From Siculibacillus lacustris (lineage in GTDB: Bacteria; Pseudomonadota; Alphaproteobacteria; Rhizobiales; Ancalomicrobiaceae): a stretch of DNA of 64,000 bases. Shown here in pieces: positions 14,340 to 31,748 of this stretch. Within the stretch, counting starts at the first letter, position 1. The number at the start of each line of letters is the position of its first letter. The notes below the pieces were generated by a model. The model saw only the letters and a program-made list of their open reading frames with translations. It had not been told where the DNA came from and made no database searches. Both the position numbers and the translations under genes were made by a program. The DNA is taken from contig NZ_SJFN01000010.1 in the NCBI RefSeq assembly GCF_004328075.1, forward strand, positions 124,001 through 188,000, in the 5' to 3' direction.

Positions 14340-15320
14340 GTGAGCTTCGACGAGACCGCGCTCGACCACGGCCGGGGGCCGCGCGGCGGCGCCTTCGACC
14401 ATCCGATCACCACGCGGCTGAAGCTGCGCCATCTCCACCTGCTGGTGGCCCTCGACGACCACCGCAAGCTCAACCGGGCGGCGACCGAATTGCGCCTGTC
14501 GCAGCCGGCGGCCTCCAAGATGCTCGCCGAGATCGAGAAGATCGTCGGGGTGTCGCTGTTCGACCGCCTGCCGCGCGGCATCGAGCCGACCTGGTACGGC
14601 GAAGCCTTGATCCGGCGGACCCGCACGGTGCTGTCGGAGCTCGGCCAGGCCGGCGAGGAGATCGCCGCGCTGCGCTCGGGCACCGGTGGTTCGGCGTCGA
14701 TCGGCGCGGTGATGGCGCCGGCGGTGGAGATGCTGACCGCGGCGGTGACGGCGGCGCGGGCGCGTCTCAAGGGCCTGCAGGTGACCATCGACGTCGAGAC
14801 CAGCGACGTGCTGGTCGGACGGCTCCTCGCCTCCAAGCTCGACTTCGTGATCTCGCGGATTCCCGCCGGCTTCGACCCCGAGCCCTTCGACTACGAGGAG
14901 ATCGGCGCGGAGACGCTGTGCATGATGGTGCGGCGCGACCATCCGCTGGCCGAGCTGGCGAGCGTGCGGCCGAGCGACCTCGCCGACCGCGAATGGTTGA
15001 TGCAGCCGCGCGGCTCGCTGATCCGGCGCAGCGTCGAGACGATGTTGCTGCGTCACGGTCTGCCGGCGCCGAGCCGGGTGGTGGCTTCCGCCTCGATCCT
15101 GATGACCCTGGTGATGACCGGCCGGACCGACGCCATCGCGCCGCTGCCGGTGCCGGTCGCCGAGATCTTCCTCAAGACCGGCGACTACCGCACCCTGACG
15201 CTCGCCGAGCCGATCGCCATCGCCCCCTACGGCCTGCTCAGGGTCAAGGGGCGGCCGCTGTCGCCGGCGGCGCGGATCCTGTTCGATCTGGTGCGCGAGC
15301 AGATCACGGGACCGGCGTGA
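14340..15320 (+). CDS. gbpR: LysR-type regulator, GbpR-like
   Basis: The 326-residue protein has an N-terminal winged helix-turn-helix of LysR type ([36 protein letters not shown], about residues 30-65), followed by an effector-binding domain. It is divergent from chvE, the arrangement known for gbpR in Agrobacterium. There GbpR activates chvE in response to galactose or arabinose. The start is GTG, preceded by GAGGAGGGG. The last 17 bases overlap the 3' end of the convergent araC gene. The GbpR assignment rests on context and general similarity. Confidence 0.85.
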
Positions 15321-16320
15321 GGACGCGGCGCTCCTCGAAGGGCACCGGCGGGCGGCCGTGATGGGTGCGGAAGGCGCGGGGGCTCCGGCCGGTGTAGCGG
15401 CGGAAGACGCGCGAGAAATAGAGCGGATCCTCGAAGCCGACCTGGGCGGCGATCTGTTTGATCGGGCTCGGCGAGACCAGGAGCAGCTGGCAGGCGAACT
15501 GGATCAGCTGTTCCTCGCGCCATTTGAGGATCGAACGGCCGAGGGTGGCGCTGAACAGATGGGCGAGCCGCGACGGCGACAGACACACCGCCTGGGCGAT
15601 CTCGGCGACGGTCAGCGGCCGGTGCAGGTTGTCGGTCATGAACTTGCAGGCCATCAACAGGCGCTCGTCGAAGCGGTTGGTGGCGACGGTGGCGCGATCG
15701 CTCTTGGCGCAGAGCAGGATGATGCGCTCCAGGATGTTCATCGCCAGTTCCATCGACAACAGGTCGGTGTTGGCCGACCAGCCGGCGACCTCGGCGAACA
15801 GGCCATCGAGCACCGGCAGCAGATCGCCGTCGCGGCGGCGCTGGACATAGAGCCCGCCCTGGGCCTCGCGCCACGACAACCAGGTCGACCAGGAGGCGCG
15901 CGGCTGGAAGTAGATCCAGCGATGCCACCATTCGCCGGCGCCGGGGTCGCGGCCGTAGTCGTGGATCGCCCCGGGCGGGAACAGCACCAGATCGCCGGCC
16001 TCGACGCGGAACCGGCCACGGCCGTCGTGGATGGTGCCGACGCCCTTGATGGTCAGGTTGATGATCCAGCCGTGCATCCCGTCGGGGCGGGAGATGCCGA
16101 AGTCGAGGGGTCCGTCGCGCTCGATCGGGGTGATGCCGGCGACCAGCCGGGTCTCGAAGTGGAAGCCGGGAAACAGCGGCGCCACCTCGGGATCGGGCGA
16201 GCGCTCGGTGCCCGCCTGGAGCAGCGAGAGGCGGCGAATGATGCTCTCGACCTGGATCGGTGTCGAGCTCGAGACGGCAGAATCATCCATGTAAAAAGCC
16301 GGATCGCCCCTTTGGGTCAT
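15304..16320 (-). CDS. araC: Arabinose operon regulator AraC
   Basis: The 338-residue protein resembles E. coli AraC itself along its whole length, not only the HTH. The N-terminal cupin half has LVAGITPIERDGPLDFGISRPDGMHG, FPPGAIHDYGRD and EWWHRWIYFQPRASW. These keep residues equivalent to Thr24, Arg38, Tyr82, His93 and Trp95, which contact arabinose in E. coli AraC. The C-terminal half has two helix-turn-helix motifs (LTVAEIAQAVCLSPSRLAHLF and IKQIAAQVGFEDPLYFSRVFRRYTG). It is divergent from araBDA. The start is uncertain: ATG at 16320 or ATG at 16290, and the araI-like operator overlaps both. This implies autoregulation. Confidence 0.93.
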   Translation of the reverse strand: MTQRGDPAFYMDDSAVSSSTPIQVESIIRRLSLLQAGTERSPDPEVAPLFPGFHFETRLVAGITPIERDGPLDFGISRPDGMHGWIINLTIKGVGTIHDGRGRFRVEAGDLVLFPPGAIHDYGRDPGAGEWWHRWIYFQPRASWSTWLSWREAQGGLYVQRRRDGDLLPVLDGLFAEVAGWSANTDLLSMELAMNILERIILLCAKSDRATVATNRFDERLLMACKFMTDNLHRPLTVAEIAQAVCLSPSRLAHLFSATLGRSILKWREEQLIQFACQLLLVSPSPIKQIAAQVGFEDPLYFSRVFRRYTGRSPRAFRTHHGRPPVPFEERRVLTPVP

Positions 16321-16339
16321 CGCCCGGAGCGACTATAGT
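16275..16339 (+). promoter_or_regulatory. araI-like AraC operator and araB promoter
   Basis: Two tandem half-sites are visible. The first is CGGC-N7-TCCATG (16275-16291); the second begins AAGC (16296) and continues CGGATCG. They start 21 bases apart. A -10-like TATAGT lies at 16334-16339, 38 bases after the second half-site start. From memory, E. coli araI1-I2 has TAGC-N7-TCCATA, a 21-base repeat, TAGCGGATC for I2 and a -10 about 37 bases on. The same pattern recurs at 24558-24622. The octamer ACTATAGT around the -10 is self-complementary, so it may also serve the leftward araC promoter, with TTGTTC 17 bases upstream on that strand. Confidence 0.75.
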
Positions 16340-16483
16340 CCGCGCCGGCTATGTGAACAATAACAGCAATTTAAAAAATTTCAGCGCTGACCTGGGGAGC
16401 GGACGAGACCGCTCCGCATGCGGCGTCACGACGAAGAGCCGGGGAGATGAGCACAGCTTCCGCCGGCCGGGAGGATCCGCATC

Positions 16484-18121
16484 ATGGCTCACGCTTCAGA
16501 TGCCCATGTCATCGGGCTCGATTTCGGTTCCGACAGCGTCCGCGCGGTCCTGTTCCGGGCCGACGACGGCGGCGAAGTCGCCCGCTCGGTGATCGCCTAT
16601 CCCCGCTGGGGGCGGGGCGACTATTGCGACGCCGGCCGACAGCAGTTCCGTCAGCACCCGCTCGATCACGCCGAATCGATGCGCGAAGCGGTGCGCGGGC
16701 TGGTGGCGGCGGCCCCGGCCGCGGCCGCGAAGGTGGTCGGCATCGGCGTCGACACCACCGGCTCGTCGCCGCTGCCGCTCGGCGCCGACGGTCTGCCGCT
16801 CGCCTACGACCCGGCCTTCCGCGACGATCCCGATGCGCTCTGCGTGCTGTGGAAGGATCATACCGCGCTGATCGAGGCCGAAGAGATCAACCGTCTGTGC
16901 CATTCCGGCGCGATCACCGACTACACCCGCTACGTCGGCGGCATCTATTCCTCGGAATGGTTCTGGGCGAAGATTCTCCACATCCATCGTTCGAGCCCCA
17001 AGGTGGCGGCGGCGGTGGTCTCCTGGGTGGAGATGTGCGACTGGATTCCGGCGCTGCTGTGCGGCGTGCGCGACCCGGCGAAGATCGTCCGCGGCCGCTG
17101 CGCCGCCGGGCACAAGGCGCTGTGGCACCCCGAATGGGGTGGTCTGCCGGGCCGCGAATTCTACGAGAAGCTCGATCCGCTGCTGACCAAGCTGCCCTAT
17201 CCGCTCTACGAAGGGCCGGTGGCCGCCGATCAGCCGGCGGGCAAACTGTCGCCGGAATGGGCCGAGACCTTCGGTCTGCCGGCGGGAATCGTGGTGGCGG
17301 TCGGGGCCTTCGACTGCCACATGGGCGCGGTCGGCGCCGGCCTCGAGCCCTATGAACTCGCCCGCGTGATGGGCACCTCGACCTGCGACATCCTGATCGC
17401 CCCGCCGGCCGACGTCGGCTCGACCCTGGTCGCCGGCATCTGCGGCCAGGTGCCGGACAGCGTGCTGCCGGGTTACATCGGCTTCGAGGCGGGACAATCG
17501 TCGTTCGGCGACGTCTTCGCCTGGTTCAAGCAGTTGCTGACCTGGGGCGATGCCGGGTCGGAGCGCAGCGCCGGTCTCCTCAAGGCGCTGGGCGAAGCGG
17601 CGGCGGCTCTGCCGCCGGGGGCCGGTGGCGAGATCGCGCTGGACTGGTTCAACGGACGGCGCACCCCCGACGCCGATCAGCGGCTGAAGGCGGCGATCGC
17701 CGGCCTGCATCTCGGCTCGACGGCGCCGGCGATCTACCGGGCGCTGATCGAGGCGACGGCCTATGGCACGCGGGCGATCGTCGATCGCTTCGTCGAGGAA
17801 GGCATCCCGGTGACGCGGATCGTCGCGCTCGGCGGGATCCCGCAGAAGTCGCCGCTGACCGTCCAGATCTGCGCCGACGTGCTCGATCGGCCGATCGGCG
17901 TGGTCGCCTCGGAGGAGTGCTGTGCGCTCGGCGCGGCGGTGTTCGCGGCGACGGTTTCCGGCTGCCATCAGTCGGCGGAAGCCGCCAAGCAGGCGATGAA
18001 GAGCGGCATCCTCACCGAATATACCCCCGATCCGGCCGCCGCGGCGGCCTATCGGGAGCTCTACGCCCGGCGTGGACGGCTCGCCGCCTACGCCGAAGCC
18101 GACGCCCACCCGGTGTCGTGA
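16484..18121 (+). CDS. araB: Ribulokinase AraB
   Basis: A 545-residue FGGY-family kinase that phosphorylates L-ribulose to L-ribulose 5-phosphate. It has the N-terminal phosphate-binding segment IGLDFGSDSVRAVLF (about residues 9-23). It also has the ribulokinase-type GVDTTGSSPLPLG near residue 90, a long insert around LWKDHTA, and the C-terminal ATP-binding VALGGIPQKSPL and AALGAAVFA segments. Length and motifs fit AraB rather than xylulokinase. The ATG is preceded by GGGAGGATCC. It is the first gene of araB-araD-araA, behind the araI-like operator. Confidence 0.95.
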   Translation: MAHASDAHVIGLDFGSDSVRAVLFRADDGGEVARSVIAYPRWGRGDYCDAGRQQFRQHPLDHAESMREAVRGLVAAAPAAAAKVVGIGVDTTGSSPLPLGADGLPLAYDPAFRDDPDALCVLWKDHTALIEAEEINRLCHSGAITDYTRYVGGIYSSEWFWAKILHIHRSSPKVAAAVVSWVEMCDWIPALLCGVRDPAKIVRGRCAAGHKALWHPEWGGLPGREFYEKLDPLLTKLPYPLYEGPVAADQPAGKLSPEWAETFGLPAGIVVAVGAFDCHMGAVGAGLEPYELARVMGTSTCDILIAPPADVGSTLVAGICGQVPDSVLPGYIGFEAGQSSFGDVFAWFKQLLTWGDAGSERSAGLLKALGEAAAALPPGAGGEIALDWFNGRRTPDADQRLKAAIAGLHLGSTAPAIYRALIEATAYGTRAIVDRFVEEGIPVTRIVALGGIPQKSPLTVQICADVLDRPIGVVASEECCALGAAVFAATVSGCHQSAEAAKQAMKSGILTEYTPDPAAAAAYRELYARRGRLAAYAEADAHPVS

Positions 18122-18152
18122 CGCATCTCGGGACGCGCCGATCCCCGGCCGC

Positions 18153-18172
18153 CGTCGCCCGCAAGGGCGGCG
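18153..18172 (+). promoter_or_regulatory. GNRA-capped hairpin between araB and araD
   Basis: CGTCGCCC (18153-18160) and GGGCGGCG (18165-18172) form an 8-bp stem with one T-G pair, capped by the stable tetraloop GCAA. It sits in the araB-araD spacer, about 40 bases before the araD start. A role in mRNA processing or stability is likely. Confidence 0.4.
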
Positions 18173-18212
18173 CGTGGGCGGATCGATCCGAAAAACCCGG
18201 AAAGGGGACACG

Positions 18213-18911
18213 ATGAAGTTGAAGACCCTGCGCGACGCCGTCTGTGAAGCCAATCTCGAGCTCGAGCGGCGGCGCATCGTGGTCCATACCTGGGGCAACG
18301 TGTCGGCGATCGATCGCGAACGTGGGCTGGTGGTGATCAAGCCCTCGGGCGTCTCCTACGACCGGCTGACCCCCGACAAGATGGTGGTGGTCGATCTCGA
18401 GGGCACGGTGGTCGAGGGTGATCTCAACCCGTCGACCGACACCCGCACCCATCTGGTGCTCTACCGGGCGTTCCCGGCGATCGGCGGCGTCGCCCATACC
18501 CATTCCGGCCATGCGGTCGCCTGGGCGCAGGCGCGGCGCGAGATTCCCTGCTTCGGCACCACCCATGCCGACTACTGCCATGGGCCGGTGCCGCTGACCG
18601 CGCCGCTGAGCGCGGCCGAAGTGGCCTCGGACTACGAGGCGGAGACCGGACTGGCGATCGTGCGGCGCTTCGGCAACGAAGATCCGCTGGCCCGGCCGAT
18701 GGTGCTGGTGGCCGGCCACGGGCCCTTCACCTGGGGCAAGTCGGCGGCCGACGCGGTGCTCAACGCGGTGTTCCTGGAAGAGATCGCCCGGATCGCCAGC
18801 GCGACCATCGCCATCGATCCGGCGGCGCAGCCGGTCGAGGACCACGTGCTCGAATATCACTATCAACGCAAACACGGTCCCGGGGCCTGGTACGGCCAGA
18901 AGACGTCCTGA
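18213..18911 (+). CDS. araD: L-ribulose-5-phosphate 4-epimerase AraD
   Basis: A 232-residue class II aldolase-family enzyme converting L-ribulose 5-phosphate to D-xylulose 5-phosphate. E. coli AraD has 231 residues. The zinc-binding histidines are in VAHTHSGHAVAWAQ (near residue 95) and in VAGHGPFTWG (near 170). The N-terminal HTWGNVSAIDRE and KPSGVSYDRLTPD are family hallmarks. I chose the ATG at 18213 because the open frame before it is not conserved-looking and AAAGGGG precedes this ATG. Confidence 0.96.
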   Translation: MKLKTLRDAVCEANLELERRRIVVHTWGNVSAIDRERGLVVIKPSGVSYDRLTPDKMVVVDLEGTVVEGDLNPSTDTRTHLVLYRAFPAIGGVAHTHSGHAVAWAQARREIPCFGTTHADYCHGPVPLTAPLSAAEVASDYEAETGLAIVRRFGNEDPLARPMVLVAGHGPFTWGKSAADAVLNAVFLEEIARIASATIAIDPAAQPVEDHVLEYHYQRKHGPGAWYGQKTS

Positions 18912-18947
18912 AGACGGGAACCAGAGCCAAGACGGAGGAAGCGCGAC

Positions 18948-20354
18948 ATGTCACTCGCCGTGGTCGGTCGGAAGCCCGTGATCGGGTTGCTCGGCATCAT
19001 GCAGGAACTCTACGACAAGATGCTGCCGGGGATCACCGAGCGGCAGGAAAGCTACGGACGCGCCGTGGCGGCGAAACTCGAAGGCGTCGCCGAGGTGCGC
19101 TTCCCCAAGGCGGTGCGCTGCCGGGAAGACATCGAAGAAGTGATGGGCGGCTTCCAGCGCGATGGCGTCGACGGCGTGCTGATCGTCATGCTGACCTACG
19201 GGCCGGGCCTGCGGCTGGTCAACGCCTTCCGCGACTGCTCGCTGCCCCTGATGCTCGCCAACATCCAGCCGGAGCCCAAGGTGACGCCGGCCTGGGACAT
19301 GGGCGACCTCACCTACAACCAGGGTGTCCATGGCGCCCAGGACACCGCCAACACGCTGATCCGTCTCGGCAAGCAGTTCACGGTGTTCTCCGGTGACTGG
19401 CAGAGCGAGGCCTTCGTGACGGCGTTCGAGACCTTCGCGGTCGCCGCCCACACGGTCACGGCGATGAAGCAGGCGAAGATCGCGGTGTTCGGGCGGATGC
19501 CCGGCATGGGCGACATCCTGACCGATCCGCACACCTTCATGCGGCGTCTCGGGCCGCAGGTCGACCACATCGGCATGGGCTCGATCGTCTACGAGATGGA
19601 GCAGTCGACCAAGGCCGACATCGACGCGGTGCTGGCCTATTGCAACGCCAATTTCGAGATGGATCCGAAGCTCAAGCCGGCCCAGCTCGAAGAGGCGGCG
19701 AAGATCCAGGTCGGCATCGCCCGCGTGCTGGAGAAGGGTGGCTACGACGGCTTCTCGCTGTACTTCAACGAGATCGGCTTCGACGGGCGCTTCACCCAGA
19801 TCCACATGATGGCCGCCTCCAACCTGATGGCCGAAGGCTACGGCTATGCCGCGGAAGGCGACACCAACTGTGCCTCGCTGATGGTCGCGGCCCGGGCGAT
19901 CGCCCCGGATCCGCACTTCACCGAAATGTACGCCATGGACTTCGAGCGCGACGCGGCGCTGCAGAGCCACATGGGCGAGGGCAACTGGAAGGTGGCGCGG
20001 CGCGACCGCAAGCCGAAGCTGATCGATCGGCCGCTCGGCATCGGTGGGCTCGACAATCCGCCGACCGTGCTGTTCCAGGCCGAGCCGGGTCCGGCGACCC
20101 TGGTCAGTCTGGTGTCGCTCGGCGGCGACGCCTACCGGCTGGTGGTGGTGCAGGGCACGATTCTCGAGACCGAGGACCTGCCGACCGTCGAGATGCCCTA
20201 CTTCTTCTATCGGCCCGACACCGGCGTCACCGAATGTCTGACCGGCTGGCTGAAGAACGGCGGCACCCACCATCAGGTGCTGCACCTCGGCGACGTGCGG
20301 CCGCGCTGGAAGGCCTATTGCGAACTCGCCGGCATCGAATACGTCGAAGTCTGA
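18948..20354 (+). CDS. araA: L-arabinose isomerase AraA
   Basis: A 468-residue isomerase converting L-arabinose to L-ribulose with Mn. It shows LTYGPGLRLVNAFRDCSLPLMLANIQPE in the N-terminal domain, GRMPGMGDI in the middle, and the metal-site region AEGDTNCASLMVAARA. Near the C-terminus is GGTHHQVLHLGD with a ligand histidine. It is somewhat shorter than the 500-residue E. coli enzyme and seems to belong to a divergent AraA branch. GGAGGAA precedes the ATG. The order araB-araD-araA differs from E. coli araBAD. A strong terminator follows. Confidence 0.92.
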   Translation: MSLAVVGRKPVIGLLGIMQELYDKMLPGITERQESYGRAVAAKLEGVAEVRFPKAVRCREDIEEVMGGFQRDGVDGVLIVMLTYGPGLRLVNAFRDCSLPLMLANIQPEPKVTPAWDMGDLTYNQGVHGAQDTANTLIRLGKQFTVFSGDWQSEAFVTAFETFAVAAHTVTAMKQAKIAVFGRMPGMGDILTDPHTFMRRLGPQVDHIGMGSIVYEMEQSTKADIDAVLAYCNANFEMDPKLKPAQLEEAAKIQVGIARVLEKGGYDGFSLYFNEIGFDGRFTQIHMMAASNLMAEGYGYAAEGDTNCASLMVAARAIAPDPHFTEMYAMDFERDAALQSHMGEGNWKVARRDRKPKLIDRPLGIGGLDNPPTVLFQAEPGPATLVSLVSLGGDAYRLVVVQGTILETEDLPTVEMPYFFYRPDTGVTECLTGWLKNGGTHHQVLHLGDVRPRWKAYCELAGIEYVEV

Positions 20355-20383
20355 TCGACACCACCATCGTCGAAGCCGCTCAG

Positions 20384-20410
20384 CGGGCCGGGATCTTCCC
20401 GGCCCGTTTT
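20384..20410 (+). terminator. Rho-independent terminator of araBDA
   Basis: CGGGCCGGGA (20384-20393) and TCCCGGCCCG (20397-20406) form a perfect 10-bp stem with a 3-base loop, followed by TTTT and more pyrimidines. It lies 30 bases after the araA stop. Confidence 0.9.
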
Positions 20411-20875
20411 CGTTCGTCGGACAGCGCGCGGCCGTCGGGCGTCATCGCCGCGTCGCGAGCAGCGCGCAAATTTCGCAATTGCGAAGAGTGATCGCGCGAA
20501 CGTCAACGTCCGGACGTCGGCGAGACCCGCTGCAGCGCAGCAAGATTTCGAAATCTGAGCAGTCGAGCGTACGTAGTCACCGTGATGCCCCCCCGTCGCG
20601 GGCGGTAGATGCTTCCCGACGGCTTGACGGCGACGGCCGAAAGGGCCACCAACTGTCTGCTACATTCGTCGTACGACGACGGCGGACGGGGTGGCTGCGT
20701 CACTCGGTCCCACTCGTCACGAAGGAAAATCGAGAGTGTTTGCTGCAATGCACGCTCCGTCCGGTGATCCGCACTGCAGCACGAGTCCTGCCGCACTGCG
20801 CCGACCGCGACACACAGAACCATTTCCGCCGAACCGAGGCCGCCGCAGCGCGTCCTCCTGCCACCGAGGCCCGTC
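20411..20875. other. ackA upstream region with three palindromes
   Basis: These 465 bases carry no convincing gene and are clearly less GC-rich than the genes. Three perfect palindromes stand out: TTCGCAATTGCGAA (20472-20485), AGATTTCGAAATCT (20542-20555) and CGTCGTACGACG (20667-20678). They are candidate operators for ackA-pta. A TACATT at 20661 could be a -10, but no good -35 lies at the right distance. Confidence 0.4.
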
Positions 20876-22081
20876 ATGTCGTCCGCTCTGAAACTCGTCC
20901 TGGTGATCAACTGCGGCAGCTCGTCGCTGAAATTCTCGCTCCTGCCGGTGGGTAGCAACGAGCCGCTGATGTCGGGTCTGGCCGAGTGCCTCGGGCTCGC
21001 CGACGCCCGGCTGGTGATCAAGAAGGACGGTGAGAAGACCACCTCGTCGCTGCTCGGCGGCGCCCACGGCGAGGCGCTGGCCTCGCTGCTGGCTCACATC
21101 CGCGAACTCGGGCTGCTCGAATCGATCCGTGCGGTCGGTCATCGCATGGTCCACGGCGGCGAGCGCTTCACCGCCTCGGCGCTGATCACCCCGGAGATCC
21201 TGACCGACATCCAGGCCTGCAACCCGCTGGCGCCGCTCCACAACCCGGCCAACCTGCTCGGCGTGCGCGCCGCGCTGGCGAGCCTGCCGGGAATCCCGCA
21301 GGTGGCGGTGTTCGACACCGCCTTCCACCAGACCATGCCGCCCGAGGCCTATACCTACGCGATCCCGCAGAAATACTATCGTGAGCTCGGCGTGCGCCGC
21401 TACGGCTTCCACGGCACCTCGCATCGCTACGTCGCCGAAGAGGCGGTGCGGCTGCTGGCGCTCGATCCCGCCGACCACGGCATCGTCATCGCCCATCTCG
21501 GCAACGGCGCCTCGGCGACCGCGGTGCTGAACGGCGCCAGCGTCGACACCACCATGGGGCTGACCCCGCTCGAAGGTCTGGTGATGGGGACGCGGGCCGG
21601 CGACGTCGATTTCGGGGCGATCGCCCACATCGCCCGGGCCGAAGGCTTCGACCTCGACCGCGTCGAGACGCTGCTCAACAAGGAGAGCGGCCTGCTCGGG
21701 ATCTCGGAACTGTCGAGCGACTGCCGGGCCCTGGAAGCGGCGATCGACGACGGCCATCACGGCGCCAAGCTGGCGCTCGACGTCTTCGTGCATCGCCTCG
21801 CCCGCCACGTCGGCGGCCTCGCCACCGCGCTGCCGCGCTTCGACGCGCTGATCTTCACCGGCGGCATCGGCGAGAACTCGCGGCGCATCCGCGCCATGAC
21901 CATCGCCCGGCTCGCGGTGTTCGGCCTCGTGCTCGACCCGGCGGCCAACGACGCCACGGTCGGCGGCAAGGCCGGCAAGATCGCCGTCGCCCCGTCCGGC
22001 CTCGTCGCGGCCGTGGTGCCGACCGACGAGGAGAGCATGATCGCCCGCGACACCGCCCGTATCGCCGGTCTTTCCGCCTGA
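20876..22081 (+). CDS. ackA: Acetate kinase
   Basis: The 401-residue ASKHA-fold kinase interconverts acetyl phosphate and acetate with ADP/ATP. Family motifs are VLVINCGSSSLKFSL at the start, VGHRMVHGGERF near residue 85, YGFHGTSHRYVAEEA near 180, NGASVDTTMGLTPLEGL, and FTGGIGENS near 325. The length is typical. It is followed 74 bases later by pta, the usual pairing for acetate overflow or acetate and acetyl phosphate use. Confidence 0.97.
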   Translation: MSSALKLVLVINCGSSSLKFSLLPVGSNEPLMSGLAECLGLADARLVIKKDGEKTTSSLLGGAHGEALASLLAHIRELGLLESIRAVGHRMVHGGERFTASALITPEILTDIQACNPLAPLHNPANLLGVRAALASLPGIPQVAVFDTAFHQTMPPEAYTYAIPQKYYRELGVRRYGFHGTSHRYVAEEAVRLLALDPADHGIVIAHLGNGASATAVLNGASVDTTMGLTPLEGLVMGTRAGDVDFGAIAHIARAEGFDLDRVETLLNKESGLLGISELSSDCRALEAAIDDGHHGAKLALDVFVHRLARHVGGLATALPRFDALIFTGGIGENSRRIRAMTIARLAVFGLVLDPAANDATVGGKAGKIAVAPSGLVAAVVPTDEESMIARDTARIAGLSA

Positions 22082-22094
22082 TCCGCACGCGTCC

Positions 22095-22124
22095 CGGGTT
22101 CCGTGGGCGCGCCCGCGGGACCCG
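22095..22124 (+). promoter_or_regulatory. Long hairpin between ackA and pta
   Basis: CGGGTTCCGTGGGCG (22095-22109) directly abuts CGCCCGCGGGACCCG (22110-22124). They pair over 15 positions with two G-T pairs, the central bases forming the loop. It lies 13 bases after the ackA stop with no T-run, so it is probably an intercistronic stabilising or attenuating structure. Confidence 0.5.
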
Positions 22125-22155
22125 ACGCACTCAACTCTCGAGGACACGTCGCGCC

Positions 22156-24294
22156 ATGAACGCTCGCTCTCGTCATCGCACCTTCTATCTCGTCCCGATC
22201 TCGCGGGAGACCGGCCTCACCTCGATGGCCCTCGGTCTGGTCCGCGCCCTGCAGCTCGCCGGCGTGCGGGTCGGCTTCGTCAAGCCGATCGTCCAGCCGG
22301 AATCGATGATCGGCGACACCGATCTCGCCAGCCATTTCGCCCGCACCCTGTGCGGCACCACGACCCCCGACCCGATCCCCTTCGCCCATGCCGCCGAACT
22401 GGTGCGCACCGGTCAGATCGGTTCGCTGATGGAAGAAGTGGTGGCGCTGGTCGAAACGGTGCGCGCCAACCACGACGTGGTGGTGGTCGAGGGCCTGATC
22501 CCCGACGCCGACATCCAGATCGCCACCCGCCTCAACATCGGCACGATCCGCAGCCTCGGCGCCGATCTGATCCCGGTGATCGCCGGCGGTTCCCGTGACG
22601 CGACCGAACTGGCGGCGATCGCCGCCACGGCCGCCGAACAATACGGCGACGAAGGCCGGCGGCCGCTGGCCGGCGTGCTGGTCAACCACTGCGGCGACGG
22701 CGCCGGCGCCGACCTGCTGATGACCGTCGGGGCGCTCGACGTGCCGGGCACCGAGAAGCCGGTGGCGATCCTGTCGGCGGTGCCGACGGTGACGCGGGTG
22801 TCGGCGCCGCGCGTGCTCGACGTCGCGGAAGGCCTGGGGCTGGGCATCTTCCATCGCGGCGCGATCGAGACGGTGCGCGCCGAGTCGATCCTGGTCGCCG
22901 CCCGCTCGCCCGAGAAGCTGATGCGCCATCTGAAGTCGGGCACCCTGGTGGTGACCCCGTCCGACCGCAGCGACGCGATCCTGACCGCGGCGCTGGTGGC
23001 GCAGCGCGGCATGCCGCTGGCCGGCCTGGTGCTGACCTGCGGCGGGACGATGGTGCCGGAACTGGCGGCGCTGTTCGACACGCCGCCGCTCGACCGTCTG
23101 CCGATTCTGACCACCGACGACGACACCTTCACCACCGCGTCGCGTCTGTCCAACCTGTCGAGCCATGTCGGCCGCGAGGACGGCGAGCGGATGGAGCGGA
23201 TGATCTCCTTCATCGCCGAGAAGGTCGACACCCGGCCGTTGCTGCGCCGGCTCGACCTGCCGGTCGAACAGTTGATGCCGCCGCCGGTGTTCCGTCACCG
23301 TCTGGTCGAGGCGGCGCGTCTCGCCGGCAAGCGCATCGTGCTGCCGGAGGGCGACGAGCCCCGCACCATCCGCGCTGCGGCGATCTGCGCGGAGAAGCGC
23401 ATCGCCCATTGCGTTCTGCTCGGGGCGCCCGACCGCATCCGCGCGGTCGCCAAGGCGCACGGCATCGATCTGCCGGCCGAGGTCGAGATCGTCGACCCCG
23501 AGACCGTGCGGGGGACCTACGTCGACCCGATGGTCGAATTGCGCAAGGCCAAGGGCCTCAATGCCCTCCAGGCTCACAAGCAGCTCGAGGACACGGTGGT
23601 GCTCGGCACCATGATGCTGGCCAAGGGCGACGTCGACGGACTGGTGTCCGGCGCGGTGCACACCACCGCTTCGACGGTGCGGCCGGCACTGCAGCTGATC
23701 AAGACCGCGCCCGGCTCGTCGATCGTGTCGAGCGTGTTCTTCATGCTGATGCCCGATCAGGTGCTGGTCTACGGCGACTGCGCGATCAACCCCGACCCGA
23801 CCGCCCAGGAACTGGCCGAGATCGCCATCCAGTCGGCGGATTCGGCGCGGGCCTTCGGCATCGAGCCGAAGGTGGCGATGATCTCCTATTCGACCGGCTC
23901 CTCGGGCACCGGCCTCGACGTCGACAAGGTGCGCGAAGCGACCGCCCTGGTGCGCGGCCGTCGGCCGGATCTGGTGATCGACGGGCCGATCCAGTACGAC
24001 GCCGCGTCGGTGGAGAGCGTCGGCCGCCAGAAGGCGCCCGACAGCCCGCTCGACGGCCATGCCAACGTGTTCATCTTCCCCGACCTCAACACCGGCAACA
24101 CCACCTACAAGGCGGTGCAGCGGTCGGCCGGGGTGGTGTCGGTCGGTCCGATGCTGCAGGGGCTGCGCAAGCCGGTCAACGACCTGTCGCGCGGCGCTCT
24201 GGTCGACGACATCGTCTATACGATCGCCCTCACGGCGATCCAGGCGGCCGCCGGCGACAAGACCGTGGCGGAACTCGATACCGCCGCCGAATGA
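22156..24294 (+). CDS. pta: Phosphate acetyltransferase, long form
   Basis: A 712-residue long-form Pta that interconverts acetyl-CoA and acetyl phosphate. The N-terminal third resembles a P-loop dethiobiotin synthetase-like domain (FYLVPISRETGLTSMALGLVRAL...GFVKPI). A DRTGG-type regulatory domain is in the middle. The catalytic domain from about residue 390 has RIVLPEGDEPRTIRAA, GLVSGAVHTTASTVRPALQLI and STGSSGTG. The length agrees with E. coli Pta (about 714). It is co-directional with ackA and probably in one operon. Confidence 0.95.
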   Translation: MNARSRHRTFYLVPISRETGLTSMALGLVRALQLAGVRVGFVKPIVQPESMIGDTDLASHFARTLCGTTTPDPIPFAHAAELVRTGQIGSLMEEVVALVETVRANHDVVVVEGLIPDADIQIATRLNIGTIRSLGADLIPVIAGGSRDATELAAIAATAAEQYGDEGRRPLAGVLVNHCGDGAGADLLMTVGALDVPGTEKPVAILSAVPTVTRVSAPRVLDVAEGLGLGIFHRGAIETVRAESILVAARSPEKLMRHLKSGTLVVTPSDRSDAILTAALVAQRGMPLAGLVLTCGGTMVPELAALFDTPPLDRLPILTTDDDTFTTASRLSNLSSHVGREDGERMERMISFIAEKVDTRPLLRRLDLPVEQLMPPPVFRHRLVEAARLAGKRIVLPEGDEPRTIRAAAICAEKRIAHCVLLGAPDRIRAVAKAHGIDLPAEVEIVDPETVRGTYVDPMVELRKAKGLNALQAHKQLEDTVVLGTMMLAKGDVDGLVSGAVHTTASTVRPALQLIKTAPGSSIVSSVFFMLMPDQVLVYGDCAINPDPTAQELAEIAIQSADSARAFGIEPKVAMISYSTGSSGTGLDVDKVREATALVRGRRPDLVIDGPIQYDAASVESVGRQKAPDSPLDGHANVFIFPDLNTGNTTYKAVQRSAGVVSVGPMLQGLRKPVNDLSRGALVDDIVYTIALTAIQAAAGDKTVAELDTAAE

Positions 24295-24302
24295 CGGGAC
24301 GA

Positions 24303-24332
24303 CCCGACGCGCGACCCCGGTCGTGCGTCGGG
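24303..24332 (+). terminator. Hairpin after pta
   Basis: CCCGACGCGCGACC (24303-24316) pairs with GGTCGTGCGTCGGG (24319-24332) over 14 positions with one G-T pair, just 8 bases after the pta stop. No T-run follows, so termination may depend on other factors, but the position suits an operon end. Confidence 0.55.
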
Positions 24333-24557
24333 CCGATCTGCGGCGGTGGCCGGTTCGGGCGGGTCGATCCGTGGCGACGCCCGGTGCGGCGACGTCCGCG
24401 CAACGGCGAGGCCGGCCCGGTGCTTTGCCGTCGCACACCGCTCGGATGACCGATCCGATTGCCGAATCTGGCGATCTCGCGCCCGTTCTCGTCCTTTCCG
24501 CCGACCTTCCGGCGGTGACGGAGCCGGTCTTCGGACCCTCCGGTGCTATTTCACGCC

Positions 24558-24622
24558 CGACAGAATCCTCCATGTAAACAGCCGGATCGCCACTGTGCGC
24601 GATCCGGGCCGATGCTTATACT
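24558..24622 (+). promoter_or_regulatory. Second araI-like AraC operator and promoter
   Basis: The site repeats the layout at 16275-16339. The first half-site is CGAC-N7-TCCATG (24558-24574); 21 bases on, CAGC (24579) starts the second half with the same CGGATCG. A -10-like TATACT lies at 24617-24622, again 38 bases from the second half-site start. Some 30 bases are nearly identical between the two copies. It points rightward to the ytfQ-like transporter genes, whose first start codon is about 670 bases on. Confidence 0.72.
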
Positions 24623-24629
24623 CCCGGAC

Positions 24630-25296
24630 GATCAATCGACCGCAGTGTCGAAGAACGAGAAGCGAGGGGTGCGGTCAGTCGCATGAGCCGTCGCCGTCGG
24701 AGGGAACGGGAGCTCGGCTCCCGAGGGGAAAGGGTGCTTCGATCATGGTCAGCCCGAACATCTGAGACCGCCCACGGTGCCGTCGGCGATCTTCGGCGCA
24801 TGCGCGTCGAGGCTCGATGCCGTCGGCCACGCGGACGGACTCCCGGCTCGATCGCGCCGGGTATCGATCACGAAATTCCAGAACGGACCGGACGAGACCT
24901 GCGCGGATGAGCCGCTGCGGACGAAGATCGTCCATATTCTGAAATGCGAGCGAATTCGTTCGGCGCCGCCGAACGTCCGAGCGTGAGGGGTCGTGGGAGC
25001 GCGCTTCGCGGGGCGCCTCGCCTCCTCGCAGGGGCCGGCCGATCGGTCCGGCTGCGGTTGCCGCTCCGGGGCTCAGGTCTCGGGGCGGGCGACTCGGAAT
25101 CACGGTCGGGAGCTCCGACCGCAGGGGCGACGCGTCGAGCGCCGCCCGGGAACAGGATCCGGACCCGCGGCGGACGGCGGGTGGTGGGATCCGAGACCGA
25201 CTGCCGTCCGTGCCGCCTCGTCCGAGACGCCCAACGCGTCCGGCGGGTGGTGATCGCCGACACCAGAACAAGACGTCAACGATGTGGAGGAAGACC
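24630..25296 (+). other. Long presumed leader before the ytfQ-like gene
   Basis: If the araI-like promoter at 24558-24622 is used, about 667 bases of transcript precede the binding-protein gene. I find no credible gene here on either strand; the open frames present are low-complexity and Arg-rich. A short hairpin, CGGGAGC-TCG-GCTCCCG, lies at 24707-24723. The part around 24900-24960 is richer in A and T, so a second promoter nearer the gene is possible. A decayed gene cannot be ruled out. Confidence 0.4.
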
Positions 25297-26247
25297 ATGA
25301 CCAGGACCAAGCTTCTCGGCGCCGCGACCTTCGGGTTCGGCCTGCTTCTGGCGGCCGGCAGCGCCTCGGCGCTGACCATCGGCTTCTCGCAGGTCGGTTC
25401 GGAAGGTGACTGGCGGCCGGCCTTCTCCAAGGACATGAAGGACGAAGCGGCCAAGCGCAACATCGACCTCAAGTACTCCGACGCCCAGGGCAAGGAAGAG
25501 AACCAGCTCAAGGCGGTTCGTTCGTTCATCGCCCAGAAGGTCGATGCGATCATCATCGCGCCGGTGGTGGTCACCGGTTGGGACGCGGTCCTCAAGGAAG
25601 CCAAGGCCGCCAAGATCCCGGTGTTCCTGGCCGACCGCGACGTCGACTCGGATCCGTCGCTGTTCGTCACCCGCATCTCCGCCGACTTCAACCTCGAAGG
25701 TCGTCTCGCCGGCGCCTGGCTCGCACAGGCGAGCAAGGGCAAGTGCGACGTCGTCGAGCTGCAGGGCACGGTCGGTTCCGCGCCGGCGTTGCAGCGCAAG
25801 AAGGGCTTCGAGTCGGTCACCGCGCTGTTCCCGGACATCAAGATCGTCAAGTCGCAGTCGGGTGACTTCACCACCGCCGGCGGCAAGGAAGTGGCCGAGA
25901 GCTTCATCAAGGCGACCAACGGCTTCAAGGGCATCTGCGCGGTCTATGCGCACAACGACAACATGCAGCTCGGCGCCATCCAGGCGATGAAGGAAGCCGG
26001 CCTGAAGCCGGGCAAGGACGTTCTGCTGGTCTCCGTCGACGGCGTGCCGGACATGTTCCGTCTGCTCGCCGCCGGTGAGGCCAATGCCTCGGTCGAACTC
26101 AAGTCCGACATCGGCAAGAACATCTATGACGTGGTCGAAGCCTACCTGAAGGGCAAGACCGACTTCCCGAAGTGGGTGCTGATCCCGTCCGATCTGCACA
26201 CCCAGGCCGACGCGGCCGCCGAGCTGGCCAAGCGCGGACTGAAGTGA
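25297..26247 (+). CDS. ytfQ: YtfQ-type furanose-binding protein (probable L-arabinose receptor)
   Basis: The 316-residue periplasmic protein has a signal peptide (MTRTKLLGAATFGFGLLLAA, cleavage after ASA). It closely follows E. coli YtfQ as I remember it: LTIGFSQVGSEGDWR, ENQLKAVRSFIAQKVDAIIIAPVV, VELQGTVGSAPALQRKKGF, KSQSGDFTTAGGKEV, VYAHNDNMQLGAIQAMKEAGLKPGKD and SVDGVPDMF. YtfQ binds galactofuranose; relatives in other bacteria take arabinose. The upstream AraC-type operator favours L-arabinose, probably its furanose form. I chose the ATG at 25297 because GTGGAGGA lies just before it; an ATG at 25282 is in frame. Confidence 0.9.
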   Translation: MTRTKLLGAATFGFGLLLAAGSASALTIGFSQVGSEGDWRPAFSKDMKDEAAKRNIDLKYSDAQGKEENQLKAVRSFIAQKVDAIIIAPVVVTGWDAVLKEAKAAKIPVFLADRDVDSDPSLFVTRISADFNLEGRLAGAWLAQASKGKCDVVELQGTVGSAPALQRKKGFESVTALFPDIKIVKSQSGDFTTAGGKEVAESFIKATNGFKGICAVYAHNDNMQLGAIQAMKEAGLKPGKDVLLVSVDGVPDMFRLLAAGEANASVELKSDIGKNIYDVVEAYLKGKTDFPKWVLIPSDLHTQADAAAELAKRGLK

Positions 26248-26260
26248 GACCGAGGGCCGT

Positions 26261-26286
26261 GCGGGTCGGGGTTCGTCCCCGCCCGC
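26261..26286 (+). promoter_or_regulatory. Hairpin just after the ytfQ-like gene
   Basis: GCGGGTCGGGG (26261-26271) pairs with CCCCGCCCGC (26277-26286) around a TTCGT loop, with one bulged T. It begins 14 bases after the binding-protein stop, and no T-run follows. The position mirrors the hairpins after the other two binding-protein genes whose permease and ATPase genes lie downstream, and it probably sets a higher receptor level. Confidence 0.5.
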
Positions 26287-26497
26287 CCGGCTCTCACGGT
26301 GCGGATCCTGCCCCTTCCGGTGTTCCTCCTCCTCGCTGCGGGGGCGCGGTCCGGGCGGCCGACGGCGACCCCCGTCGGCCGCCTGTCCGCGGACGCGCGG
26401 CGGCGTGGGGCGAGATCCGCGACGGGGCGACGCATCGACGCTCGCCGCGGACCGTTCCGCGACGTAGACTTGCGAACCACCACAGGAGCAGCGGCGC

Positions 26498-28006
26498 ATG
26501 GACGTTCCGGCGCGGCCCCGGGTCGTCATGCGGGGCATCACCAAGACGTTTCCGGGGGTCAAGGCCCTCGACGGCGTCGATTTCACTCTGGCCCCGGGCG
26601 AGATCCATGCCCTGCTCGGCGAGAACGGTGCGGGCAAATCGACCCTGGTCAAGGTTCTGACCGGGGTTCTGGCGGCGGATGCCGGTACGGTCGAACTCGA
26701 CGGCGTGCCCATCCGGGTGGCCTCACCGGCGGCGGCCCAGGATCTGGGCATCAACACCGTCTATCAGGAGGTCAATCTCGTCCCGACCCTGTCGGTGGCC
26801 GAGAACCTGATGCTCGAGCGGCAGTCGTCGCGCTTCGGGCTGATCTCCTGGCGCAAGACGCGGGAACGGGCCGAGGCGGCGCTGGCCCGCCTCAAGATCC
26901 ACGTCGACGTCGGCCGGTCGCTCGGCTCCTGCTCGCTGGCGATCCAACAATTGGTGGCGATCGCCCGGGCGCTCGATCGCGACACCCGCGTCCTGGTGCT
27001 CGACGAGCCGACCGCCAGTCTCGACGCCCACGAGGTCGAAGGCCTGTTCACGGTGTTGCGCGACATCCGCGCCCGCGGCATCGCCATCGTCTTCATCACC
27101 CACTTCATCGATCAGGTCTACGCCATCGCCGACCGGATCACCGTGCTGCGCAACGGGCGCTTCGCCGGCACCGGCACGATCGCCGAAGTGCCGCGGATGC
27201 GGCTGGTCACCCTGATGCTCGGCAAGCAGATCGAGAGCCACTATGCCGAGCGGCCGACCACCGAGAGCATCGACCAGACCGGCGCGCCGGTGATCGCCGC
27301 GACCGGGCTCGGGCGGGCCCGTTGGTTGGAACCGATCGATCTCTCGGTGCGCGCCGGGGAAGTGGTCGGGCTCGCCGGCCTGCTCGGATCCGGGCGGACC
27401 GAAACGGCCAAGCTGCTGTTCGGCGCCGAACGGGCCGACAAGGGCTCGCTGGTGATCGACGGTGTCCCGGTGACCCTGCGCTCGCCCGGTCAGGCGATCC
27501 GCATGGGCTTCGGATTCTGTCCGGAAGACCGCAAGCACGAGGGGCTGATCCTCGACCTCAGCGTGCGCGAGAACCTGATCCTGGCGCTGCAGTGTCGGCG
27601 CGGATGGTGGAACCGGGTCGGTCAGGCCGAGCAGAACCGTATCGCCGCCGAAATGATCGCGGCGCTCGGCATCGCCACGCCGGACGCCGAGAAGCCGGTC
27701 GGACAATTGTCCGGCGGCAATCAGCAGAAGGTGATCCTGGCGCGCTGGCTGGCGGCCAAGCCGCGGCTGCTGATCCTCGACGAACCGACCCGCGGCATCG
27801 ACATCGGCGCGCATGCCGAGATCGTCGGCCTGATTCGGCGGCTGTGCCGCGAAGGTCTGGCGCTGATCGTCGCCTCGTCGGAGCTCGAGGAGATCGTCGC
27901 CTTCAGCCATCGCGTCGCGGTGCTGCGCGATCGGCGCAAGGTGTCCGAGATCGTCGGCGCCGACATCACCCAGTCGACCATCGTGGAGGCGATCGCCAAC
28001 TCATGA
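26498..28006 (+). CDS. ytfR: YtfR-type sugar ABC importer ATPase
   Basis: The 502-residue double ATPase has a first half with Walker [10 protein letters not shown] and Walker [14 protein letters not shown], and a weak signature (CSLAIQQLVAIARAL). The second half has the usual degenerate Walker A GLLGSGRTE, then [15 protein letters not shown] and [13 protein letters not shown]. It energises the two permeases encoded next. AGGAG precedes the ATG. A 250-base spacer with a hairpin separates it from the ytfQ-like gene; its stop overlaps the next start (ATGA). Confidence 0.93.
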   Translation: MDVPARPRVVMRGITKTFPGVKALDGVDFTLAPGEIHALLGENGAGKSTLVKVLTGVLAADAGTVELDGVPIRVASPAAAQDLGINTVYQEVNLVPTLSVAENLMLERQSSRFGLISWRKTRERAEAALARLKIHVDVGRSLGSCSLAIQQLVAIARALDRDTRVLVLDEPTASLDAHEVEGLFTVLRDIRARGIAIVFITHFIDQVYAIADRITVLRNGRFAGTGTIAEVPRMRLVTLMLGKQIESHYAERPTTESIDQTGAPVIAATGLGRARWLEPIDLSVRAGEVVGLAGLLGSGRTETAKLLFGAERADKGSLVIDGVPVTLRSPGQAIRMGFGFCPEDRKHEGLILDLSVRENLILALQCRRGWWNRVGQAEQNRIAAEMIAALGIATPDAEKPVGQLSGGNQQKVILARWLAAKPRLLILDEPTRGIDIGAHAEIVGLIRRLCREGLALIVASSELEEIVAFSHRVAVLRDRRKVSEIVGADITQSTIVEAIANS

Positions 28007-29043
28007 TCCCGGTCCCCCCTCCTTCGGAACCCGCCACCAAGACGCGCCGGCCGTTGCCGGCGGTGGTGTGGCCGCTCGTCGCGCTGGCGGCGATCCTGGT
28101 CGTCGACGGCTTCATCAGCCCGTCCTTCTTTTCGATCCGCCTCGTCGAAGGGCGGCTCTACGGCAGCCTGATCGACATCGTCTATCGCGGCACGCCGATC
28201 GCACTCCTGGCGCTCGGCATGGCGATCGTCATCGGTGCCAAGGGTATCGACCTGTCGGTCGGCTCGGTGGTGGCGATCGCCGGTGCGGTGATGGCCCATT
28301 TCATCCATCTCGGCTTCGATCCGGCGGTGGTGGTGGCGGCGACGCTGGCGGTCGGCCTGCTGTGCGGCCTGTGGAACGGCTTCCTGGTGGCGGTCCTGTC
28401 GATCCAGCCGATCATCGCGACGCTGATCCTGATGGTCGCCGGTCGCGGCATCGCCCTGATGATCAACGGCGGTCGCATCCCGACCTTCCGCTCCGACTTC
28501 TTCTCGGCGCTGTCGACCGGCCGCATCTGGGTGATCCCGTCGCGGCTGTTCCTGGTGGCGCTGGTGTTCCTGGTGCTGTGGGCGGTGCTGCGGCGCACGG
28601 CCTTCGGCCTGTTCGTCGAAGCGGTCGGCGGCAATGCGTCGGCGGCGCGGCTCGCCGGCATCGGCACGCGGATGGTGACGCTGGCGACCTACGGCATCTC
28701 GGGGGTCTGTGCGGCGCTGGCCGGGATCATCATCACCGGCGACACCCGCTCGTCGGATGCGGTGACCGCGGGGATGTGGTCGGAACTCGACGCCATCCTG
28801 GCGGTGGTGCTCGGCGGGGCGTCGCTCAACGGCGGCCGCATCTTCCTCGCCACGACCCTGGTCGGGGTGCTGATCATCCAGTCGCTGACCACCTCGATCC
28901 TGATGAGCGGCCTGCCGCCGGAGTTCAATCTGGTGGTCAAGGCGGTGGTGATCCTGGCGGTTCTGCTGGTGCAGGCGCCGAAGGTACGGACGGCGGTCGG
29001 TTCGCTGGTGGCGGCCTTCCGGCCGAGGAGGACGGAACGATGA
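28003..29043 (+). CDS. ytfT: YtfT-type sugar ABC permease
   Basis: A 346-residue inner-membrane permease of the RbsC/BPD_transp_2 family with about eight to ten hydrophobic segments. The characteristic [22 protein letters not shown] lies near residue 80. The coupling region EAVGGNASAARLAGI is in the C-terminal half, followed by LDAILAVVLGGASLNGG. This is the part missing from gguB. The ATG overlaps the ytfR-like stop by four bases, which excludes the longer open frame upstream. It pairs with the next permease as a heterodimer. Confidence 0.92.
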   Translation: MIPVPPPSEPATKTRRPLPAVVWPLVALAAILVVDGFISPSFFSIRLVEGRLYGSLIDIVYRGTPIALLALGMAIVIGAKGIDLSVGSVVAIAGAVMAHFIHLGFDPAVVVAATLAVGLLCGLWNGFLVAVLSIQPIIATLILMVAGRGIALMINGGRIPTFRSDFFSALSTGRIWVIPSRLFLVALVFLVLWAVLRRTAFGLFVEAVGGNASAARLAGIGTRMVTLATYGISGVCAALAGIIITGDTRSSDAVTAGMWSELDAILAVVLGGASLNGGRIFLATTLVGVLIIQSLTTSILMSGLPPEFNLVVKAVVILAVLLVQAPKVRTAVGSLVAAFRPRRTER

Positions 29044-30014
29044 GAGAGCGACGCCTGCCGATCCTGGCGACCATCGCCGTCTTCGTCCTGCTCTATGCGC
29101 TGGGCGGCCTCCACTTCAACCACTTCCTGTCGACCGGTGTCTTCGGCAACCTGTTGACCGACAACGCCTTCGTCATCATCGCCGGGCTCGGCATGACCTT
29201 CGTCATCCTGTCCGGGGGGATCGATCTGTCGGTCGGCTCGATGATCGGCTTCGTCGGCATCGCCATGGCGACGATGGTCGCCCACGGCTGGCATCCGCTG
29301 GCGGCGATCGCCGTGCTGCTGGTGATGGGCATCGTGCTCGGCGCGCTCATGGGCTGGATCATCGACGCCTTCGAGATCCAACCGTTCATCGTGACGCTGA
29401 CCGCGATGTTCCTGCTGCGCGGCCTGTGTTTCGTCATCAGCCTCGACTCGGTGCCGATCAAGCATCCCTTCGTCGAGGCCTTCTCCGACTTCCATCTGGC
29501 GCTGCCCGGGGACGGGTGGTTGTCGGGGCCGGCGCTGGTGATGCTGGCGGCGCTGGCCTTCGCGGTGGTCGTCGCCCACTTCACCCGCTTCGGCGCCAAC
29601 GTCTATGCGGTCGGCGGCGATGCGGCCTCGGCGCTGCTGCTCGGCGTGCCGGTGCGGCGGACGATCGTCGGGGTCTATGCGCTCAACGGCGCCTTCGGGG
29701 TGCTGGCGGGGGCGACCTATGCCTTCTACACCTCGTCGGGCTACCCGCTGGCGGCCAGTGGCGTCGAGCTCGATGCCATCGCCGCGGTGGTGATCGGCGG
29801 CACGCTGCTCACCGGCGGCGTCGGTCTGGTGATCGGCACGGTGTTCGGCGGGCTGATCCAGGGCCTGATCCAGACGCTGATCATCTTCGACGGGTCGCTC
29901 GACAGCTGGTGGATCCGCATCGTCATCGGCGGCCTGCTGTTCGTGTTCATCGTGTTGCAGAAGCTGATCATGCGCTCGGTCACTGCGCTCGGCGCGTCGG
30001 CCGCGCCGGGCTGA
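29040..30014 (+). CDS. yjfF: YjfF-type sugar ABC permease
   Basis: The 324-residue second permease of the YtfQRT-YjfF-type importer. It has SGGIDLSVGSMIGFVGIAMAT near residue 60, the loop YAVGGDAASALLLGV, and ELDAIAAVVIGGTLLTGGVG near the C-terminus. The ATG at 29040 overlaps the previous stop by four bases. It closes the transporter operon; a GC-rich dyad follows. Confidence 0.92.
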   Translation: MRERRLPILATIAVFVLLYALGGLHFNHFLSTGVFGNLLTDNAFVIIAGLGMTFVILSGGIDLSVGSMIGFVGIAMATMVAHGWHPLAAIAVLLVMGIVLGALMGWIIDAFEIQPFIVTLTAMFLLRGLCFVISLDSVPIKHPFVEAFSDFHLALPGDGWLSGPALVMLAALAFAVVVAHFTRFGANVYAVGGDAASALLLGVPVRRTIVGVYALNGAFGVLAGATYAFYTSSGYPLAASGVELDAIAAVVIGGTLLTGGVGLVIGTVFGGLIQGLIQTLIIFDGSLDSWWIRIVIGGLLFVFIVLQKLIMRSVTALGASAAPG

Positions 30015-31416: not shown

Positions 31417-31466
31417 CCGTGGCGGGCCGCGCCCGCCGCTCTCGATCTCACCCAGGACGACCGACC

Positions 31467-31748
31467 GTGATCCTCATCTCCTGCCCCTGGTGCGGCGACC
31501 GTGATCAGACCGAGTTCGCCTATGGCGGCGACGCCACGGTGCAACGCCCGGCCCCCGACGACGCCGATCCCACGCGCTGGTTCGACTATGTCCACACCCG
31601 TGACAATCCGCGCGGAAGCCACCGCGAACTGTGGTTCCACGCCTTCGGCTGCCGGCAATGGGTCGAGGTGACCCGCGACACGGCGACCCATGCGGTCGCC
31701 GGTGCGGTGCTGGCCGGGCTGCGGGTCGGCGAAGGAGAGACGCCATGA
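31467..31748 (+). CDS. soxD: Sarcosine oxidase delta subunit
   Basis: A small 93-residue subunit starting at GTG 31467, preceded by AGGACG. It has the delta-subunit zinc motif: CPWCG at residues 6-10 and, further on, H-E-L-W-F-H-A-F-GC near residue 60, with HTRDNPRGSHRELWFH typical of SoxD. It stabilises the alpha-beta flavoenzyme and has no activity of its own. The stop overlaps the soxA start by four bases. Without the GTG start the gene is easily missed. Confidence 0.93.
   Translation: MILISCPWCGDRDQTEFAYGGDATVQRPAPDDADPTRWFDYVHTRDNPRGSHRELWFHAFGCRQWVEVTRDTATHAVAGAVLAGLRVGEGETP

Follow-up and report, generated by a model that had tools for sequence, protein, structure and literature searches.

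A candidate AraC-dependent promoter upstream of a GafABCD-type importer in the arabinose cluster of Siculibacillus lacustris

In Escherichia coli, araBAD is activated with AraC bound to two direct half-sites beside the core promoter, and AraC has reportedly also been the subject of a genome-scale study by Stringer et al. in 2014. The exact arrangement AGC-N7-TCCAT-N6-AGC is found in E. coli K-12 in the upstream regions of araB, araF and ytfQ, in the last case 187 bases before the gene start, and at araE it appears only if three mismatches are admitted. The regulation of E. coli ytfQRTyjfF by AraC is described in PMC10191376, in which the system has been renamed GafABCD. In EHEC the ytfQRTyjfF genes are reported among those most strongly induced by arabinose (PMC11127945), and for Pectobacterium an AraC site is predicted before ytfQRTyjfF (PMC7843439). 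ChIP/qPCR work on AraC made use of ytfQ primers, and according to this source enrichment there was not assessable in the untagged control (PMC3738151). As described in these sources, the link between AraC and ytfQRT-yjfF is not new in kind, being reported for E. coli and predicted for Pectobacterium. At E. coli ytfQ, GalR is reported to bind as well (PMC5110547). A second close relative of the system described here is GafABCD (AraUVWZ) of Shewanella sp. ANA-3, where the importer likewise lies in an arabinose cluster and the binding protein likewise carries Phe at the selectivity position (PMC10191376, PMC2996990). However, the regulator predicted for the Shewanella locus is the GntR-type AraR-II (PMC2996990), whereas we propose AraC here. 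A literature search for such a circuit in Rhizobiales returned no paper; prior publication is still possible.

The window analysed here is a stretch of 64,000 nucleotides on contig 90 of the 5.02-Mb genome of Siculibacillus lacustris. It contains an ara cluster in which araC is divergent from araB, araD, araA, ackA and pta, followed by ytfQ, ytfR, ytfT and yjfF. The araC gene is on the reverse strand (15304..16320; NF007860 AraC, 340 bits, cut-off 208) with a likely start codon at M11 (16290); in the eight genomes of a related genus (f44) the AraC matches start at residue 11 (seven genomes) or residue 6 (one genome). Aligned over 280 residues, its product shares 45% identity with E. coli AraC, also in the C-terminal part, which contains the DNA-binding domain. 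All other genes of the cluster are on the forward strand. They comprise araB for ribulokinase (16484..18121; NF003154, 699.5 bits), araD for L-ribulose-5-phosphate 4-epimerase (18213..18911, start approximate; NF006047, 329.6 bits), araA for a divergent L-arabinose isomerase-like protein (18948..20354), an ackA-like gene for an acetate/propionate family kinase (20876..22081; TIGR00016, 472.3 bits, cut-off 293.4) and pta for phosphate acetyltransferase (22156..24294; NF004167, 895.8 bits). The araA product reached 182 bits with NF002795, below the cut-off of 622, and is 24-28% identical to the araA matches of f44. The genes ackA and pta sit between araA and the importer; a phosphoketolase (PF09364) was considered as an explanation for their presence in the cluster and rejected, the best match of 22 bits being below the cut-off of 23.7.

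The importer genes are ytfQ/gafA for the substrate-binding protein (25297..26247; NF041827, 407.6 bits, below the equivalog cut-off of 510, with ORF 25210-26247 scanned), ytfR/gafB for the ATP-binding subunit (26498..28006; NF041861, 732.6 bits, below the cut-off of 850), ytfT/gafC for a permease (28003..29043, start approximate; PF02653 in frame, open translation) and yjfF/gafD for a second permease (29040..30014; NF008630, 423.5 bits, cut-off 363, with ORF 28068-30014 scanned). The four subunits of a GafABCD system are present in order, with YjfF above its curated cut-off and YtfQ and YtfR below theirs. The alpha-L-arabinofuranosidase domain PF06964 gave no match in the S. lacustris genome and matched 5 of 14 control genomes. 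On the 3' side of the importer, on the same strand, sarcosine oxidase-like subunits with DAO, SO_alpha_A3 and GCV_T domains are encoded (30157-34705). Compared with the AraC regulon of E. coli, the locus has in common an AraC-type regulator, a tandem AGC-N7-TCCAT-N6-AGC upstream of ytfQ and a four-gene importer. It differs in that the importer operon lies within the ara cluster, its relatives belong to the alphaproteobacteria, YtfQ carries Phe where the E. coli protein has Glu41, and an unusually long stretch of 675 bases (24623-25296) separates the -10-like hexamer from the start of ytfQ.

The araI-like tandem operator of araB is located at 16276..16311 on the forward strand, and a candidate AraC tandem operator lies 5' of ytfQ at 24559..24594 on the same strand. 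The two are identical at 32 of 36 bases; the earlier note, which had read the second site as a near-copy of the first, was right in this and had placed it correctly. The ytfQ site consists of two direct AGC-N7-TCCAT-type half-sites starting at 24559 and 24580, and a base count bears out the claim that the step of 21 bases is the same at both sites. TCCAT and the second AGC are exact in the ytfQ site, and the first AGC is replaced by GAC, amounting to two mismatches in 11 fixed positions. At both sites 37 bases separate the second AGC from a -10-like hexamer, which is TATAGT at araB (16334..16339, forward strand) and TATACT in the predicted ytfQ promoter (24617..24622, forward strand), with 5/6 bases identical. 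The equal distance had been recognized before; only its value, then given as 38 bases, differs by a matter of counting. In contrast to the sites, their surroundings have diverged, with 7/22 bases identical between site and hexamer and 8/30 in the 30 bases 5' of each site, so the description of a conserved site between diverged flanks holds. The cognate AraC is encoded in the same genome, by the gene adjoining araB. A scan of 24200-25320 with the sigma-70 consensus returned no promoter, and the promoter call at 24559-24622 is therefore based on spacing and comparison. In its fixed bases, its 21-base step and its -10-like hexamer at a nearly equal distance, the site resembles the araI1-I2 promoter of E. 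coli araBAD.

Within its own genome the ytfQ site is rare. A BLAST search with 24500-24700 (201 bases) returned, besides the query itself, only the araB site (40 nt, 88%, E 4.8e-7). When as many as three mismatches were tolerated, both TCCATGTAAANAGCYGGATC and GNCAGNATCNTCCATGNANANAGCYGGAT matched exactly these two sites in the 5.0-Mb genome, and the reversed control of these patterns had no match in the genome; because the patterns were modelled on the two sites themselves, this is a measure of rarity and not independent support. The short pattern TCCATGTAAANAGC had two exact matches in the genome, which are again the two sites. Allowing one mismatch, it gave 11 matches in 7 of 15 family genomes versus 14 for the reversed control, and it was discarded as family-wide evidence, being at chance level beyond the genome of S. 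lacustris. A matrix trained only on araC-araB/D sites of relatives (seven loci, four distinct sequences), below called the f11-only matrix after the related genus f11, contained no window sequence. With this matrix the ytfQ site scored 30.2 bits, whereas 200 Markov-1 controls modelled on its upstream region averaged 7.4 and did not go beyond 17.8, and over the window the two sites took ranks 1 and 2, with the third place at 14.9 bits. A matrix built from the three E. coli sites ranked the araB site first in the window and the ytfQ site outside the top six; it was set aside as a detector of the latter, being too unlike the Siculibacillus lineage.

AraC orthologues were searched at E<=1e-60 in 297 genomes drawn from the order, that of S. 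lacustris included, and were found in 16 of them: S. lacustris itself, six f11 genomes, eight f44 genomes and G001, which has a distant protein (44%) on a contig different from that of its ytfQ locus (L048). G001 aside, 11 other listed members of the window's own family had no AraC match. The genes araC, araD and araA share 73-86% identity with their counterparts in the f11 genomes and the Pleomorphomonas MAG locus L016, and the gaf genes are 76-84% identical to those of L015 and L016. From such comparisons, a transfer of the ara-gaf region (15304-30014) between families is possible. In the araC-araB/D regions the operator is kept at 28-30 of 36 positions in seven loci of relatives, namely the six of f11 (L052-L057) and L016, all of which have TATAAT at the same distance from it. 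The f44 loci reached 18-21/36 versus the araB reference of the window, which is near background.

Upstream of ytfQ, the site and its layout also recur in relatives bearing AraC. A ytfQ homologue was found in all 14 f11 and f44 genomes searched, and in 13 of these 14 genomes with an AraC orthologue a candidate site precedes it; as f11 and f44 are one genus each, this amounts to two lineages. Some 150-225 bases separate the candidate sites from the ytfQ match downstream, which starts near residue 28. The fourteenth genome (G211) has no site, and there ytfQ directly follows araA at a distance of about 220 bases, so that a separate ytfQ promoter may be unneeded. In L016, a block of 43 bases around the site is identical to the window at 36 positions (E 1.3e-8) and is, among non-coding matches in the region before ytfQ, the sole one below E 0.1; a match at E 0.004, second in order, falls in the ytfQ start itself, and all others are at E 0.15 or worse. 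This preservation of the site amid an otherwise diverged region, together with the identity of 32/36 in the window next to diverged flanks (8/30) and a diverged spacer before the -10 (7/22), argues against the view that the ytfQ site is a nonworking leftover from the duplication or rearrangement of a promoter, which might have happened, for example, when ackA-pta came between araA and ytfQ. The gene order did change within the group, since Oryzibacter (L015/L082) has araA directly before ytfQ and no site, and the long leader would also fit such an origin, but we consider it very improbable that the site is a mere remnant.

The wider lineages were compared with a matrix combining sites from f11 with those from E. 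coli, covering about 200-380 bases near ytfQ per locus (for L016, 200 bases around the known site). Within the fetched stretches, the best position near ytfQ took rank 1 at 10 of the 14 loci (L016 and 13 others) and rank 2 at the other four; at these four the top place was between araC and araD in L016 and L086, and in L092 and L094 it was upstream of araD. No site near ytfQ was detected with this matrix in L018 and L048-L051, where the best positions ranked 4th to 76th with scores <=3.4. The genomes of L049, L050 and L051 gave no match to AraC at E<=1e-60, and L048 is from G001 with its distant AraC on another contig. Two loci were left to the f11-only matrix, L017 (313 bases upstream) and L019 (Allorhizocola, distant), and neither showed a site. 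The comparison with this matrix covered 314-1302 bases per locus; three of the 14 loci (L083, L085, L093) stayed at or below the best of their 60 controls, and L049, from a genome with no AraC orthologue of such kind, reached 17.1 bits, level with several f11 candidates (16.2-19.2). The E. coli-only matrix ranked the sites of L016, L083 and L092 13th, 21st and 14th, respectively. L048 and L049, which belong to the same genus, have a conserved element of their own about 225 bases 5' of the ytfQ match, GGGAAGTTCGTTGATGCAA.. / GGAAACTTCGTTGATGCAA.., which occupies the position of the AraC sites in other lineages and is perhaps the site of another regulator. The case for the ytfQ site of the window is thus carried mainly by its likeness to the araB site, by the f11-only matrix and by L016, with the wider lineages as supporting evidence. 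Overall, AraC very probably does use this site as an operator, one of an ordinary kind.

The leader between the promoter and ytfQ deserves separate consideration. It is also long in L016 (about 510 bases), and its sequence is not conserved there. Scanned against Rfam at E<=1, the region 24200-26600 returned no match. Neither a terminator-like nor a sigma-70-like site was found between operator and ytfQ; a single terminator-like site, at 24531-24543, is located before the operator. A stretch of 675 bases could suggest that a real AraC-dependent promoter at 24559 yields a short transcript, a small RNA or a small ORF in 24629-25296, and that ytfQ has a nearer promoter of its own. We regard this as very improbable, however, given that Rfam is empty in the scanned region, that no terminator- or sigma-70-like site intervenes, that, at E below 0.1, the leader shares nothing else non-coding with L016, and that the site stands near ytfQ in f11, f44 and E. 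coli.

We favour the reading that 24559-24622 is, with high probability, an AraC-dependent promoter switching on the GafABCD (YtfQRT-YjfF) importer along with araBDA. The assignment of the transporter to the arabinose regulon, made in the earlier note, is supported by the conservation in relatives, by the operator layout at E. coli araB, araF and ytfQ and by the position in the ara cluster. We propose that in the presence of L-arabinose an AraC dimer would occupy the two direct half-sites at 24559 and 24580, the second of which adjoins the position at which a -35 element is missing, and that RNA polymerase would be recruited to the -10 at 24617. By analogy, the mode of action is most likely that of E. 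coli araBAD. The ytfQ-ytfR-ytfT-yjfF (gafABCD) genes would thereby be transcribed together with araBDA-ackA-pta, which would be expressed from the matching promoter at 16276-16339, and the ytfQ transcript would cross the whole leader before reaching the gene. It is AraC binding, activation, the ligand and the read-through to ytfQ that we infer in this scheme.

At araB, the operator overlaps the likely start codon of araC (ATG at 16290, the complement of TCCAT). This differs from E. coli, where the start codons of araB and araC are 338 bases apart with araI between them. The TATAGT hexamer at 16334-16339 forms part of the palindrome ACTATAGT, and the hexamer may also serve araC on the opposite strand. 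A TTGTTC element is found 17 bases from ACTATAGT on the opposite strand, and its counterpart in the f11 loci and L016 is TTGCTC. Together, ACTATAGT and TTGTTC could constitute an araC promoter overlapping the araB promoter; if so, this would be a compact layout letting AraC block its own gene.

Regarding the substrate, Trp37, Arg38 and Asp111 (E. coli numbering), by which GafABCD-type binding proteins can be recognized, are all kept in the aligned YtfQ of the window, and its best PDB match is the GafA structure 5ocp of Shewanella sp. ANA-3 (357.7 bits). The window protein has Phe at position 40 of Shewanella GafA, corresponding to Glu41 of E. coli; the equivalence follows from that of Asp110 and Asp111 given in PMC10191376 and from gapless alignments between these residues. 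Shewanella GafA is described as binding L-arabinose and not galactose, with Phe40 possibly conferring selectivity for L-arabinofuranose, and the E. coli protein is reported to bind L-arabinose too (PMC10191376). The ligand of the importer is therefore by analogy probably L-arabinose, and probably its furanose form, whose uptake would be the outcome of the induction proposed above. A search for AraF homologues found none in the S. lacustris genome at E<=1e-3, and the same query matched G249 at E 5.8e-96; the importer may thus be the main arabinose ABC importer of this organism. The earlier note had described a transporter of the YtfQRT-YjfF type and named galactofuranose as the substrate of its E. 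coli homologue. The type is correct, given the four subunits in order, and the emphasis on galactofuranose is probably misplaced in view of the Phe and of the L-arabinose binding by the E. coli protein. It is conceivable that the operator is read correctly and that the main substrate is nevertheless D-galactofuranose or another sugar, arabinose control being inherited from a broader role. The family name and the galactofuranose structure of E. coli YtfQ point in this direction, as does the description of YtfQ from both E. coli and Mycobacterium smegmatis as binding both sugars (PMC10191376). The Phe at the Shewanella Phe40 position, the ara neighbourhood and the result of the AraF search speak for L-arabinose, and we hold the galactofuranose alternative to be unlikely.

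Among the homologues, Phe is also present in YtfQ of L015 and L082, which evidently represent one organism, and of L016, L017, L048, L049 and L050; L018 has Trp and L019 has Asn, and Glu is found in E. coli, L051 and 13 other f11/f44 proteins. From this distribution it follows that AraC-type candidate sites precede both Phe-type and Glu-type YtfQ. Tentatively, and as an idea we find conceivable rather than probable, AraC could have captured a furanose importer more than once, with AraC operators before Phe-type and Glu-type GafA operons in this alphaproteobacterial order, the link being kept as importer clade and specificity changed, and with Gaf as the main arabinose importer here.

In conclusion, our analysis gives the importer a well-supported regulatory annotation and predicts L-arabinose, probably in the furanose form, as its substrate instead of the galactofuranose of automatic family names. 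A matched operator pair with diverged surroundings in one genome would help in experiments on the base requirements of AraC. The AraC-Gaf link would be extended from enterobacteria to an alphaproteobacterial group.
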